Source: Alcanivorax sp. (lineage in GTDB: Bacteria > Pseudomonadota > Gammaproteobacteria > Pseudomonadales > Alcanivoracaceae). Taken from it: DNA of 64,000 nt. The stretch lies in NCBI RefSeq assembly GCF_002733835.1, contig NZ_NVWY01000002.1, positions 50,631-114,630 on the forward strand. The letters are read 5' to 3'. Made by a program: the position numbers and the translations under genes. The notes beneath the pieces were generated by a model, which was given only the letters and a program-made list of their open reading frames with translations, searched no databases and was not told where the DNA came from. The number at the start of each line of letters is the position of its first letter. Positions within the stretch are counted from its first letter, which is position 1. Shown here one piece after another: positions 13,532 to 53,602 of this stretch.

Positions 13532-13601
13532 TAGCTTCTAGCTTCTAGCTTCTAGCTTCTAGCTTCTAGCTTCTAGCTTCTAGCTTCTAGCTTCTAGCTT
13601 C
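13532..13601. repeat. Ten perfect tandem copies of a heptamer, TAGCTTC
   Basis: Ten uninterrupted copies of TAGCTTC, no mismatches, on the plus strand (GAAGCTA on the strand of the flanking genes). The same heptamer recurs in the maf-sppA gap at 23939. The array is fused directly to a second heptamer array. Confidence 0.97.
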
Positions 13602-13603
13602 TA

Positions 13604-13652
13604 GCGTCCGGCGTCCGGCGTCCGGCGTCCGGCGTCCGGCGTCCGGCGTCCG
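13604..13652. repeat. Seven perfect tandem copies of a second heptamer, GCGTCCG
   Basis: Seven exact GCGTCCG copies continue in the same 7-base phase as the preceding TAGCTTC array after a two-base junction. A last degenerate copy (GCGTTCT) runs into the pilZ stop codon TAG at 13660-13658. Confidence 0.97.
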
Positions 13653-13657
13653 GCGTT

Positions 13658-14005
13658 CTACATCGTATGCGTCGGTCGATCCGATTCCAGCGAGCCTGCC
13701 AGGTGATTTTCGATGGTGACGCGGGCAGTGTCATCCTGGTCAGAGAACTGCACGCCGATCCCGGCACTACGGTTACCTTGAGCGCCTTTGGGCGTGATCC
13801 AGATCACCTTGCCCGCCACCGGAATCTTGTCGGCTTCGTCCATGATATTGAGCAGCAGGAAGATTTCTTCTCCCAGCTTGTATTGCTTTTCGGTGGGAAT
13901 AAACAGGCCGCCATTGGTAATGAAAGGCATGTAGGCCGAGTACAGCACCGCTTTGTCTTTGATGGAAAGCGACAGAATGCCACTACGACCGCCGGGCATT
14001 TTCAT
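13658..14005 (-). CDS. pilZ: PilZ domain protein, type IV pilus assembly
   Basis: 115 residues, the size of the stand-alone PilZ needed for type IV pilus assembly. The protein shows GLFIPTEKQYKLGEEIFLLL, AGKVIWITPKGAQGNRSAGI and GVQF. The N-terminal RxxxR motif that binds c-di-GMP in other PilZ proteins is absent, as in the pilus-assembly PilZ of Xanthomonas and Pseudomonas. GAGG lies seven bases before ATG. It follows holB by 51 bases in the usual holB-pilZ order. Its stop codon is the edge of a heptamer repeat array. Confidence 0.92.
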   Translation of the reverse strand: MKMPGGRSGILSLSIKDKAVLYSAYMPFITNGGLFIPTEKQYKLGEEIFLLLNIMDEADKIPVAGKVIWITPKGAQGNRSAGIGVQFSDQDDTARVTIENHLAGSLESDRPTHTM

Positions 14006-14056
14006 GAGCGAGCCTCTTACGAAATTATTATTAATCTTTGAACAGCCGGCTCAAGG

Positions 14057-15064
14057 TTAGTGCGCTGCTGCCGCAGCGTCAACGCCCACCAGCACCAGCA
14101 ACCACTGCTCGTACAGCAATTCCTTGTTGGGGTTGGCCCCGGACAGCAAGGCGCGGCGCCCTTCCAGCACCCGCTGGGCAGCCCGCAACAAACGCGCCGG
14201 TGGCACCGCCTTGCTGAGTCGCTCCAGCAGTGGAGCCAGGGATGCGTCGGCGCTCTGCTGGCCGGAGAAGCGCTGATTCAAACAGCGTGACAACCAGCCA
14301 TAAATCACCCCGGCCATCTCGGTAGGGTCATGCTTGGCGAGCACCGGCGACGCTTGCGCCACCGACTGGCGCCCTTCTGCCACGCTGACCAGGGTATCGA
14401 GCAAACGGGCCCGGTCGCCAAACCAGTCCGCCTGCTCCAGTGCCAGCGCCTGTAGCGGCGCGCCCTGGGCGGCATCCAGTAACGAGGCAGCGCTCTCGCC
14501 CACCTGGCTCTGCAACCACTGCAGCGCCTGGTCATGCTCCGGTAACGGCAAGGTGCGCTGCTGGCAACGGCTGCGAATGGTCGGCAACAACAGCGTCGGC
14601 TGATCACTGACCAGCAGCAACAGGGTCTGCGCGCCCGGCTCTTCCAGGGTTTTCAGCAAGGCATTCTGGGCATTGCGGTTGAGCGCTTCCGCCGGATACA
14701 CAATGGCAACCCGGTAACCACTGTACTGAGCGGTGCGGGTGGCAAACGCCACCAGCTTGCGGACCTGGTCAATCTTGATGGTTTTGCTTTTTTCTTCCGG
14801 GCTGAGGCGGTGCAGATCGGGGTGAGTACCGGCGGTGCTGAGCTGACACCCCTGACAGTGGCCACAGGGCAGCCCTGCGGAAGGTTTCTCGCAAAGCAGG
14901 GTCTGGGCCAGGGATTCGGCCAAGCGCAGCTTGCCGATGCCTTTGGCACCGGTCAGCAGCAAAGCATGGGGCAGCCGCCCCTGGGCGTGCTGGTCAAGCA
15001 ACTGCGCCATGACCTCGCCATGCCAGGGGCACGGTGCCTGAACTTTTGCGCCGGTTACGGCCAT
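14057..15064 (-). CDS. holB: DNA polymerase III delta-prime subunit
   Basis: 335 residues of a clamp-loader AAA+ protein. Visible are the degenerate P-loop [12 protein letters not shown], a zinc-binding cysteine cluster (CGHCQGCQ with an upstream Cys), and the SRC motif in [10 protein letters not shown]. The C-terminal collar domain is helical. The start at 15064 gives [18 protein letters not shown] and overlaps the end of tmk by ten bases. The longer frame from 15178 would overlap tmk heavily and is rejected. Gene order tmk-holB-pilZ is standard. Confidence 0.93.
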
Positions 15065-15681
15065 GCCAGCATCTCCTCGACTATCGCGGCCAGCTGCTGC
15101 TGTACCGACCCCAACGGCTGCCCCGCATCCACGGTGCGGAACCGACCGGGCTCCTGGGCTGCACGGGCCAGATAACACTGGCGGATACGTTCAAAAAAAG
15201 CCCGGTCTTCCTGTTCGATGCGATCCAGAGCGGCACGTTTGCCGGCACGTGCCATGCCCACATCTACCGGCACATCAAACAGTACGGTCATGTCCGGGCG
15301 GGTGTCGCGAATGACCAGGCTTTCCAGGTCGGCAATGGCTGCGCTGTCCAGCCCTCGCCCTGCCCCCTGGTAAGCCCAGGTGGCGTCCACAAAACGATCA
15401 CACAGCACCCATTCGCCACGGGCCAGTGCCGGACGAATCTTCTGCTCCAGGTGCTGCGCGCGGGCGGCGAACACCAGCAGCAACTCCGTATCATCCGCCA
15501 TAGGTTCATCACCGGGCGCCAACAGTACACCACGGATCGATTCCGCCAAGGCGGTGCCGCCGGGTTCGCGGCTCACTGTCACCGTCTTGCCGGCGGCTCT
15601 GAGAGCGTCGGCCAGCCATTCCAGATTGCTGCTTTTGCCCGCGCCCTCGCCGCCTTCCAGGGTGATGAAACGGCCACTCAT
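15055..15681 (-). CDS. tmk: Thymidylate kinase
   Basis: 208 residues. It phosphorylates dTMP to dTDP with ATP. P-loop [10 protein letters not shown] near the N-terminus, the DRY-like [13 protein letters not shown] segment, the REPGGT motif that binds the phosphate of dTMP, and a lid region rich in Arg near residue 150. The ATG overlaps the mltG stop codon (ATGA), so translation is coupled. Confidence 0.96.
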
Positions 15682-52127: not shown

Positions 52128-52141
52128 GGCCGTTCAGGCAC

Positions 52142-52169
52142 AAAAAAGCCCGCACGGGGCGGGCTTCTT
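52142..52169 (-). terminator. Terminator of the apbE-nqrM transcript
   Basis: Stem AAGCCCGC/GCGGGCTT with a 5-base loop; on the minus strand it ends in a run of T (GGGCTTTTTTG). It lies 16 bases after nqrM. Confidence 0.85.
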
Positions 52170-52185
52170 GTTGCCGGGCGCGGGC

Positions 52186-52422
52186 TTACATCTTCATCAC
52201 GTCTTTACCCAATGCCGCCGCTTTTTCGCTGTTCACCTTGCGGGTATTCTCTTCGCATTCGTCGTCGTTACCGCCGCAGATTTCACAGTCCTGTTTCATG
52301 CCCAGTGAGGCCAGGCCACCACAGGAGCCTTTGACCGGCTTGTTGGAAAGAATCACGCCCACGGCCATGCCGGCGAAAAGCAGGCCAATGAAAACTACTG
52401 CTGCCACAATGGTCATGAACAT
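52186..52422 (-). CDS. nqrM: Na+-NQR maturation protein NqrM
   Basis: 78 residues. One N-terminal membrane helix (IVAAVVFIGLLFAGMAVGVIL) then a small domain with four cysteines (SCGGLAS, CEICGG, DECEEN). NqrM delivers iron for the centre held between NqrD and NqrE. ATG 52422 follows the apbE stop by one base and has GGAGGG eight bases upstream; the longer frame to 52542 is read-through into apbE. Confidence 0.94.
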   Translation of the reverse strand: MFMTIVAAVVFIGLLFAGMAVGVILSNKPVKGSCGGLASLGMKQDCEICGGNDDECEENTRKVNSEKAAALGKDVMKM

Positions 52423-52423
52423 G

Positions 52424-53434
52424 TTACTTACCCTCCACAATTGCATCGAAGGCGGGAGTCGATAACTCTTCCACGCCCTTATTGGTTCTGACAATAAAAA
52501 ACACTGCCAGTTCTTGGTCTTTGGCGAAAGCCATCCCTTCATCCGGGCCCAGCACCGTCATGGCGGTGGCCAGACCGTCGGCCATCATGGCACTTTTGTG
52601 CAAAACGGACACCGAGGCCAACTGATGCTCCACCGGGTAGCCGGTACGGGGATCAATGGTATGGGAATACAAGCGGCCGTCCGACTCAAAAAAGTTACGG
52701 TAATCGCCACTGGTAGCCACGGCCATATTCTTCAGGTCTACCACCTGCTCCACCTCGCGAACACCCGCAATCGGGCGTTCTACGGCAACCCGCCAGGGCT
52801 GTTTATAGGGTTTGCTGCCCTTGCCCAGCAGTTCTCCGCCCACCTCTACCAGGTAGTTATTCAACCCATGGCTATCCAGTAAGGCCGCCACCTTGTCCAC
52901 CGCAAAACCTTTCGCAATGGACGACAAATCCACATAGATGCCGCCGGGCTGCAGCAGTTGCTGGTCGCTGAGCAGCAGTTTCTGCCAGCCAACCCGTTCC
53001 TGCGCTGTCTCGATTTCGCTGGCCTCTGGTGGCTCAAACCGGTCCGGGTCCGGCCCGAAGCCCCACAGGTTAACCAGCGGCCCCACCGTCACGTCATAGG
53101 CGCCGCCGGTTTGTTCCGACAGGGAAAAGGCGGCAGTCATCACCTTAACGGTATCCGAGGGCAGATTCATCAGCGTCCCCGGCTCGGCGCTGTTGAAACG
53201 GCTAAGGTCGGAATCCGGTCGGTAGGTGCTCATCTGGGCGTTTACCTGCTCCAACGCCGCTTCAATATCACCCTTCAACGCTTCTACGCCTTCGTCCGGA
53301 GTGCCGCTGTATTTTACGCTCCAGGTGGTTCCCATGGTGGGGCCACTGAGTACCGACAGGCGATTCTTGCTGTCGTCACAGCCCGTCAGCAGCAGCGCCA
53401 GGGAAACAATCAGCAGAGGAAGAATGCGAGGCAT
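52424..53434 (-). CDS. apbE: FAD:protein FMN transferase
   Basis: 336 residues, lipoprotein signal ending LLLTGC. ApbE attaches FMN to Thr residues of NqrB and NqrC in the periplasm. Family motifs GPTMGTTWSVKY, DLSSIAKGFAVDKVA, HTIDPRTGYPVEH and MMADGLATAM are intact. It follows nqrF across a terminator and a 140-base inverted heptamer element, so it may be expressed partly on its own. ATG 53434 or 53440. Confidence 0.94.
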   Translation of the reverse strand: MPRILPLLIVSLALLLTGCDDSKNRLSVLSGPTMGTTWSVKYSGTPDEGVEALKGDIEAALEQVNAQMSTYRPDSDLSRFNSAEPGTLMNLPSDTVKVMTAAFSLSEQTGGAYDVTVGPLVNLWGFGPDPDRFEPPEASEIETAQERVGWQKLLLSDQQLLQPGGIYVDLSSIAKGFAVDKVAALLDSHGLNNYLVEVGGELLGKGSKPYKQPWRVAVERPIAGVREVEQVVDLKNMAVATSGDYRNFFESDGRLYSHTIDPRTGYPVEHQLASVSVLHKSAMMADGLATAMTVLGPDEGMAFAKDQELAVFFIVRTNKGVEELSTPAFDAIVEGK

Positions 53435-53464
53435 TGTCATGTTCCGGTGGTTAACAAGGAGCGC

Positions 53465-53602
53465 AAGTTGAAAGTTCAAAGTTTAAAGTTAAAACGCGCG
53501 TTGCCCAGGCACTACACTGACACTGCTATAGCCGCGACGAGCGATTTCGCAGGGAAATGCACAAGATCACCGCTTACCTTTTCAACTTTGAACTTTGAAC
53601 TT
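53465..53602. repeat. Inverted pair of AAGTTNA heptamer arrays
   Basis: Left arm: AAGTTGA AAGTTCA AAGTTTA AAGTTAA (53465-53492). Right arm: TCAACTT TGAACTT TGAACTT (53582-53602). The arms are complementary in 7-base register and enclose about 90 bases without a gene. Same family as the element at 33156. Confidence 0.92.

Follow-up and report, generated by a model that had tools for sequence, protein, structure and literature searches.

Heptanucleotides are the commonest class of long simple sequence repeat in most prokaryote genomes, as Mrazek 2007 is quoted in the passages of PMC4679880 and PMC4692102 on which we draw; these passages treat them as tandem repeats and make no mention of paired arms. 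Here we describe heptamer arrays in a 64,000-nucleotide stretch of Alcanivorax sp. DNA (the window; contig NZ_NVWY01000002.1, positions 50,631 to 114,630), in a larger sample of the same genome (G000) and in its relatives. A sequence-only reading of the window had reported arrays of strict 7-bp period but differing sequence at six intergenic sites, and had attributed them to a common generating mechanism or a modular reader, not to simple slippage. The excess of 7-bp tandem repeats, which as such is already known, is found here as well. Most of the arrays, however, are arms of inverted-repeat elements at the ends of genes: a heptamer is repeated in one arm, the same heptamer is inverted in the other arm, and a core usually of 40–120 bp lies between them. 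This pairing around a core had escaped the sequence-only reading, which also named neither the known heptameric excess nor the paired inverted sites of Xanthomonas (PMC4692102).

A stem built from a degenerate heptanucleotide repeat has been described for the P6b stem-loop of the trnL (tRNA-Leu UAA) intron of Nostoc, with Class I (TDNGATT) and Class II (NNTGAGT) motifs (PMC4476775, in the parts cited here). The motif classes replace each other repeatedly and independently at that one site, which resembles the word exchange reported below, and P6b grows or shrinks in whole repeat units, on one side of its stem or on both. Nostoc P6b belongs to one self-splicing group I intron of lichen-symbiotic cyanobacteria, whereas the window elements lie between protein genes, and here there are dozens of gene-end sites per genome, about eight flavours of unit, cores of tens to more than 100 bp and inverted cores. 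The GGGNATC and GGGANTN repeats of Xanthomonas and Nostoc (PMC4692102, in part) are likewise mostly intergenic and differ in length between close relatives. In the account of the Xanthomonas heptamers, sites paired in opposite orientation number 70 and 75 cases in two genomes, and the repeats lie nearer to the upstream gene, with few between divergent genes. Those repeats have one G-rich unit and were studied as G-quadruplexes; here there are many units, with matched arms and inverted cores, and on reading the array flavours of G000 we saw no GGG in the units, apart from one unit of an array in L066. The TAACTGA direct repeats of marine Beggiatoaceae also form many intergenic heptamer sets across a genome, but their heptamer is always the same, they lie for the most part upstream of start codons, a single case is inverted and related heptamers are rarely repeated (PMC4679880, in part). 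The passages of PMC4666352, on intrastrand triplexes, that we draw on do not refer to heptamers. In the PMC library, outside which most subscription papers lie, we found no description of gene-end elements in which paired heptad arms enclose inverted cores.

The G000 sample consists of the window and 60 further stretches, together 1,142,508 bases of a genome of 3,596,023 bases. This is not a random sample, as the stretches mostly begin contigs. Three were placed on arrays already known, and for 3 of the 52 arrays a stretch end is no more than 300 nt away. An inverted-repeat search of this sample with seeds 50–220 bp apart returned 81 inverted repeats, comprising 32 with heptad arms, 26 REP-like ones with GTAGGAG arms and 23 others. 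Over all 81, the self-match of the arms is 0.41 at a shift of 7 and 0.48 at a shift of 14, compared to 0.19–0.28 at the other shifts from 3 to 15. The core is at least 80 nt long in 21 of the 32 heptad-armed repeats and shorter in 11. By eye, several long-core elements read as arm, NCGCG, about 30 nt, a CCGCG...GCGCGG stem, about 30 nt, CGCG and arm, and several short-core elements start with a CGAAAAACAAA-like stretch. The flavours of the arms, in our naming, include AAGTTNA, CAAGCTN, CGAGTTN, GACGTCN, GAYGCYN, GTTGAYA, AATAATK and CACGCNN. A partner test with a p cut of 0.01 was run twice with new shuffles on the 51 testable arrays, one of the 52 having too little flank. An inverted partner was present on exactly one side in 33 of the 51 arrays (35 on repeat) and on both sides in none, while a direct partner was present in 8; for units that are not self-complementary the counts are 31 inverted and 6 direct among 46. 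These results suggest that many long arrays are one arm that grew. Independent slippage arrays do not account for arrays paired as inverted repeats around a core. The sequence-only reading is borne out in so far as the arrays belong together despite their different units and are not simple slippage arrays; on copy number, slippage still acts.

Period 7 is also the dominant repeat period of the genome. The G000 sample contains 49 imperfect runs of period 7 with at least three units, compared to three of period 6, one each of periods 9 and 12, and none of periods 4, 5, 8, 10, 11 and 13; the scan thus bears out a heptamer family that stands apart from other periods, including 5, 6, 8 and 9. Without the three placed stretches the period-7 count is 43 and the other counts are the same, and three first-order Markov resamplings of the sample gave no run at period 7. 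Within the window, periods 4–15 show strong runs at 7 and its multiple 14, and otherwise one period-12 and two period-15 rows. In smaller samples of the relatives, period 7 is the top period in G012 (14 runs), G008 (4), G016 (3), G006 (3) and G009 (2), with 0 or 1 at other periods, but not in G003 (one each at 7 and 9) or G001 (one each at 6, 7 and 8). The density of period-7 runs is 5.0 per Mb in G001, 42.9 in G000 and 70.0 in G012 (samples of 0.2, 1.14 and 0.2 Mb). G001 is heptad-poor, with one run of at least three units in 200 kb (L375-L384), and by eye seemingly holds degenerate remnants at orthologous sites. AGCT-type heptad arrays occur in 16 of the 17 genomes of the genus set and in 24 of the 46 of the family set. 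The backwards-pattern control used there is not a neutral one, since CGAGTTT-type heptads can fit it; its counts in some genomes may be due to this. The sequence-only reading had fitted the units to one loose grammar, C-[T/G]-Y-N-N-R-R or its complement. A looser frame, RMGYNNN, is fully matched on one strand or both by 42 of the 52 arrays; the grammar is descriptive only.

The arrays might be ordinary polymerase-slippage repeats that favour 7-nt units, with inverted pairing as a secondary feature. Among long repeats, heptanucleotides reportedly outnumber the other classes in most genomes, with an explanation in terms of polymerase contacts (Mrazek 2007, via the same passages of PMC4679880 and PMC4692102). 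Furthermore, copy number at the maf-sppA site differs between the sister genomes G006 and G009 (8 and 3 GAGCTGT-type units, with similar flanks), and two-copy 7-bp duplications outside the elements number 19 against an expected 10.2 ± 2.9. This excess is, however, no larger than that of 6-bp (62 against 36.1) or 8-bp duplications (6 against 3.0), and with a mask removing weak period-7 runs only the count is 12 against 9.2. Since the mild excess is alike at 6, 7 and 8 bp, no special preference for 7 is visible outside the elements. Slippage does not predict inverted cores, and inverted partners far outnumber direct ones (35 and 8 of 51). We thus find this explanation doubtful, and free-standing slippage arrays were rejected on the same count of inverted partners. 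As G000 shows a strong excess of 7 in the elements, while its two-copy duplications at other places favour 7 no more than 6 and 8, the question of why the unit is seven becomes testable.

Four orthologous sites (pilZ-tatD, maf-sppA, lpxK-kdsB and nqrF-apbE) were compared in the 17 genomes; at two of them, nqrF-apbE and lpxK-kdsB, the arm word differs between species. At nqrF-apbE the arms are AAGTTNA in G000, G006, G008, G010 and G012, CAAGCTN in G001 (degenerate), G004, G007, G009, G013 and G014, and CAAGTNN in G005; G015 has CGAGTTN beside REP sequence, and G002, G003, G011 and G016 have other elements, masked sequence or none. Both arms carry one flavour in 19 of 20 elements by motif count (12 at nqrF-apbE and 8 at lpxK-kdsB), the exception being the degenerate G001. 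When the left arm is compared with the inverted right arm, the score is 37.2 for arms of one element and 13.4 if the second arm comes from an element of a different flavour (p 3e-12). Units also change in concert: the seven units read in the two G005 arms all show AGT, in place of the AGC of G007 and G014, whose core is homologous. Exchange is seen even between close relatives, and a tree of four concatenated proteins pairs G006 with G009 and G003 with G016. G006 and G009 are 93.8% identical over 38.8 kb, and at nqrF-apbE, one of three gaps listed, an AAGTTNA element faces a CAAGCTN element. G003 and G016 are 93.4% identical over 77 kb, with nine gaps listed, and at two sites a heptad element (G016 at lpxK-kdsB, G003 at pilZ-tatD) faces an element with CACAGAG nonamer arms. 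Automatic arm finding at pilZ-tatD gave arms clearly above shuffles in 3 of 16 species, the region limits cutting some arms. Hairpins with a period of about 9 and arms of CACAGAGNN occur at lpxK-kdsB of G003 (L163), at pilZ-tatD of G016 (L127) and at L056:3504-3670. Those at sites that carry a heptad element in a close relative suggest that a nine-letter counterpart may exist.

The cores between the arms are in several cases inverted from one species to another. Pairwise scoring of 18 cores at nqrF-apbE and lpxK-kdsB in both orientations gave 81 pairs, with 16 same-oriented and 14 inverted. For G006 and G012, the nqrF-apbE cores match only if one is reversed, and then at 71 of 87 positions; the reversed match extends through the core into the arms. 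In the 17 genomes the G006 core has one match in G006 and one in G012, each next to apbE, in opposite orientation relative to that gene. Likewise, the cores of G001, G004 and G009 are inverted relative to those of G005, G007 and G014 in 8 of 9 pairs, and all 6 pairs within the groups are same-oriented. Nine pairs picked by the author, of which seven were inverted and two same-oriented, were re-tested with 500 shuffles, and all gave p 0.002 in the expected sense. Among the window neighbours with a family match there is no recombinase, although no search aimed at recombinases was made.

Such exchange of elements could also reflect a family of miniature mobile elements with heptad terminal inverted repeats and fast-diverging cores. 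Close relatives do hold different element types at the same site, and weak similarity between cores of different loci is higher within a flavour in G000 (mean z 1.78 compared to 0.92, p 0.0003); one pair of cores 3 kb apart is strongly similar (L058, z 13.4). In a search of the 17 genomes at E 0.001, however, the G006/G012 core is single-copy in each of the two and restricted to nqrF-apbE, and a second core occurs once each in G004, G013 and G016, always at lpxK-kdsB. In addition, blastn at E 0.01 among the 32 cores joins five pairs, mainly via GC-rich inner stems, and flavour does not predict core similarity between the two orthologous sites (p 0.34). None of the gaps listed for three genome pairs shows a heptad element opposite a clean empty site, and no target-site duplication was established. 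We regard a mobile family as improbable; in the form of a single family with many recent copies it was set aside, given two searched cores that are single-copy and site-bound and only five blastn pairs. Separate from the heptad elements is a likely miniature inverted-repeat transposable element of ~270 bp with ~31-bp terminal inverted repeats (AGAACCTG...GCCGCG type), found in G003 (L313:2167-2437; C5, about 187167-187437) with an empty site in G016; a similar inverted repeat is present in G000 (L090:7074-7341). Another mobile-element candidate, with ...TGCATGCTCAG-type arms at ~200-bp spacing, occurs at L064:4713-4981, L089:16017-16285, L070:12045-12310 and L086:3385-3650.

The elements lie preferentially just behind stop codons. 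Gene contexts were taken from our own codon-based calls (860 genes), not from annotation. By these calls, co-directional genes flank 26 of the 52 arrays, convergent genes 13 and divergent genes 2; of the others, 8 fall within predicted genes and 3 at the ends of stretches. The intergenic gaps of at least 60 nt comprise 294 co-directional, 100 convergent and 107 divergent ones. Among the 39 arrays next to a gene end, 21 are at most 11 nt from the predicted stop codon, compared to 9.3 by random placement (maximum 17 in 2000 trials). In several relatives the first unit includes the stop codon of maf, examples being TAGCTACGAGCTACG and TGAGCTGTGAGCTG. REP-type repeats in G000 are also found near gene ends. 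This position, with scarcity between divergent genes, is what would be expected if selection for a gene-end RNA or DNA structure (a terminator, a stabilizer, or a protein site with contacts 7 bp apart) kept the arms paired; some cores contain terminator-like hairpins, and the common layout of several long-core elements points the same way. The position may, on the other hand, reflect tolerance only. The folding z, with the strand given, is above –2 in 24 of the 32 cores, though its mean is negative, the window contains no Rfam family, and no reader protein was found. As cores are inverted between species and arm words exchanged, no sequence is held fixed. Selection of this kind is possible but, in our view, unlikely. 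A conserved folded core as the common feature was rejected, with z at or below –2 in 8 of the 32 cores, several of which have a terminator or a long GC stem inside.

We consider it probable, though well short of certain, that replication template switching between the arms keeps heptad arms matched and flips their cores. Template switching between inverted repeats has arm homogenization and spacer inversion as its outcomes, and repeated switching between short inverted repeats is described as common in proteobacterial non-coding DNA (PMC8604942, in the parts cited here). It has also been argued that template switching can make and maintain hairpins (PMC8794818, likewise in part). The combination of arm homogenization with spacer inversion is thus the published signature of template switching, and it points to template switching as the likely driver here. 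The inverted heptad arms would form a hairpin or cruciform; judging from the pattern, a polymerase that switched template between the arms would match the arms to each other and invert the spacer. Strand slippage would then lengthen one arm into a long array, such as the ten TAGCTTC units in the window, and the position after the stop codon would be one where the element is tolerated, perhaps with a role as a 3'-end structure. In-place spacer inversion, as in the G006/G012 pair and in the 8 of 9 pairs between the two species groups, is what the likeness to the published cases consists of. The inversions in PMC8604942, as far as that source is drawn on, concern spacers in yeast genes with 2–5 bp substitutions, whereas here the spacers are about 85 bp and the arms are repetitive. 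Template switching would account for arm matching and core flips; the unit length of 7 and the exchange of whole elements are outside its reach.

Several observations weigh against template switching as the explanation. No inverted partner was found for 18 of the 51 arrays (16 on repeat), and both long arrays of the window fail the 0.01 cut (13532 with p 0.02; 23939 with none), although the array at 13532 still forms one arm of an inverted repeat in the separate inverted-repeat search. The 20 elements that agree in flavour in 19 cases were chosen by boundaries placeable by eye, which favours recognizable arms. Arms of the same element (37.2) are no closer than arms of different elements of the same flavour (35.2, p 0.23), so that matching is shown at the level of flavour only. 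The exchange of a whole element between the ~94% identical G006 and G009 is not predicted by template switching alone. As for the cores, 51 of the 81 pairs gave no orientation call, the orientations of the G013 core conflict, and the case for an inversion in G015 at lpxK-kdsB is marginal (scores of 32 and 31, with shuffle maxima of 29 and 30). There is also a weak similarity between cores of different loci, the 99th percentile of 628 such scores being 65.5; these pairs include the window nqrF-apbE core scored with same-site cores of other species, which makes the background stricter. Against it, 7 of the 14 inverted calls fall in the top 1% and the other 7 lie outside the top 3%. Part of the core matches could therefore be family resemblance. 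If template switching is the cause, the elements are natural sites at which to measure it, the identity of the arms and the orientation of the core serving as read-outs. Caution is called for when 3' ends are compared, tandem repeats typed or such genomes assembled, as flipped and exchanged cassettes are possible.

REP, BIME and REPIN elements are extragenic hairpins. They occur in G000; the REP arms here are of GTAGGAG type, not heptad arrays, and flank many of the genes for REP-associated tyrosine transposases (RAYT). These transposases might make or move the heptad hairpins too: Y1_Tnp is present in 16 of the 17 genus genomes, and G001, the sole one without it, is alone in having no AGCT heptad array and is low in period-7 runs as well. 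We checked 40 stretches around Y1_Tnp genes, of 60 genus matches. A GTAGGAG/GTGGGAG inverted repeat lies within 1 kb of the stretch middle in 26 of them and not in 14, whereas the seven heptad-armed repeats in the 40 stretches are all at least 1.0 kb from the middle, and one heptad run is inside a REP pair (L343). In the family, moreover, G017, G018, G020 and G021, among others, have Y1_Tnp without an AGCT array, and G044 and G045 have arrays without Y1_Tnp. We therefore hold this origin very improbable; as maker of the heptad hairpins, RAYT is largely refuted by gene surroundings and family distribution. The modular reader suggested earlier is unsupported so far, as no protein was found and the one candidate tested, RAYT, neither adjoins heptad hairpins nor tracks the arrays. 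The Y1_Tnp genes themselves (L047:91-856, L045:19073-19614 and L337-L369) have several GTAGGAG/GTGGGAG REP subtypes nearby; genus genomes have 0–7 matches each, and a run of REP pairs lies beside the gene of L369.

Halomonas, Pseudomonas and members of other phyla have paired heptad arms as well. We scanned species genomes with AGCT heptads as seeds; this seeded sample, which does not give a frequency, has 80 loci with 112 arrays among the matches listed. For the 102 of these with both flanks, an inverted partner is present in 45, a direct one in 22, and partners are on both sides in 2. Among the same listed matches, the seeded arrays are paired in Halomonas (13/15), Pseudomonas (7/10), Planctomycetota metagenome-assembled genomes (4/5), Bacillota (2/2) and Opitutia (1/1), and in none or few of Verrucomicrobiales (0/4), Alcanivorax (0/3), Salinicola (1/4) and Chromohalobacter (0/2). 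That several phyla share one class of gene-end element, with interchangeable words, an invertible core and a factor acting on the arms that sets the unit at 7, is a conjecture to which we give little credence for now. The elements described above would give the dominance of heptamers among long bacterial repeats an anatomy, namely invertible hairpin arms at gene ends.

The features of the window are listed in Table 1. Period-7 arrays are confirmed at four of the six sites of the sequence-only reading, while those at 47443 and 52033 are too degenerate for both scans. Tandem Repeats Finder (TRF) at score 30 reports period 7 at 13532, 13604, 23939, 23963, 33161, 53465 and 53580, and a stricter score keeps 13532-13656, 23939-24020, 53465-53494 and 53580-53602. 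Three further TRF rows of 2.1–2.4 copies, at 29806, 39252 and 43131, had not been named in that reading.

Table 1 Heptad elements and related features in the window.
Feature	Position	Composition	Source or score
pilZ-tatD element	13440..13656	arm 13440-13466 (GATGCCAGACGCCGGATGCTA type), core, expanded inverse arm 13532-13656	
Terminator-like hairpin in pilZ-tatD core	about 13472-13503		
TAGCTTC array	13532..13605	10.6 copies, part of one expanded arm	TRF, 100% matches
GCGTCCG array	13604..13656	7.6 copies	TRF
maf-sppA convergent site	23902..24020	perfect hairpin 23902-23937	fold z –6.0
CTTCTAG array, maf-sppA site	23939-23964	3.7 copies	TRF
CTCGTAG array, maf-sppA site	23963-24020	8.3 copies	TRF
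lpxK-kdsB element	33154..33253	AAGTTNA arms 33154-33183 and about 33215-33253; overlaps lpxK end at 33239	
REP-type inverted pair	47397..47516	CTGTAGGAGCGCC...GGCGCGAA	inverted repeat score 26.5; fold z –10.0
Weak candidate, convergent GNAT-DUF3335 / nqrM	52029..52111	CGAGTTN-type arms 52029-52050 and 52087-52111	by eye
nqrF-apbE element	53465..53602	AAGTTNA x4 arm 53465-53494, core 53495-53579, inverse arm 53580-53602	

The pilZ-tatD element has an inverted repeat score of 14.5 and a fold z of –10.9 over 217 nt; its GCGTCCG array stops 1 nt before the stop codon of a PilZ-domain gene (13658-14005, minus strand; open reading frame, Pfam PilZ), and the orthologous site in other species also holds elements. 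The maf-sppA array of the window has no inverted partner in the partner test. At lpxK-kdsB the arms in G000 reach a pairing score of 27, compared to a maximum of 16 in 10 shuffles, with a fold z of –5.6, and the core is shorter than in the close relative G008 (a core gap in the alignment). The weak candidate at the convergent GNAT-DUF3335/nqrM site was missed by the period scans and the inverted-repeat scan, and the fold z over 52012-52140 is –1.8. The nqrF-apbE element was found by TRF, has an inverted repeat score of 18 and a fold z of –3.2, and has a partner on one side only (p 0.005). No Rfam family reached its gathering score in the window. The REP-type pair overlaps the end of a sulfotransferase-like gene (Pfam Sulfotransfer_3) at 47509 and encloses degenerate NNCGAR heptads at about 47443-47480, with short CGAGTTN-type arms by eye. 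A comparable REP pair at L343:1202-1399 has four TAGCGAG heptads in its spacer; together, the two suggest that REP pairs sometimes enclose heptads. At 63795-63980 lies a 63-bp tandem repeat of 3.1 copies with, by eye from the DNA, a collagen-like Gly-X-Y coding character.

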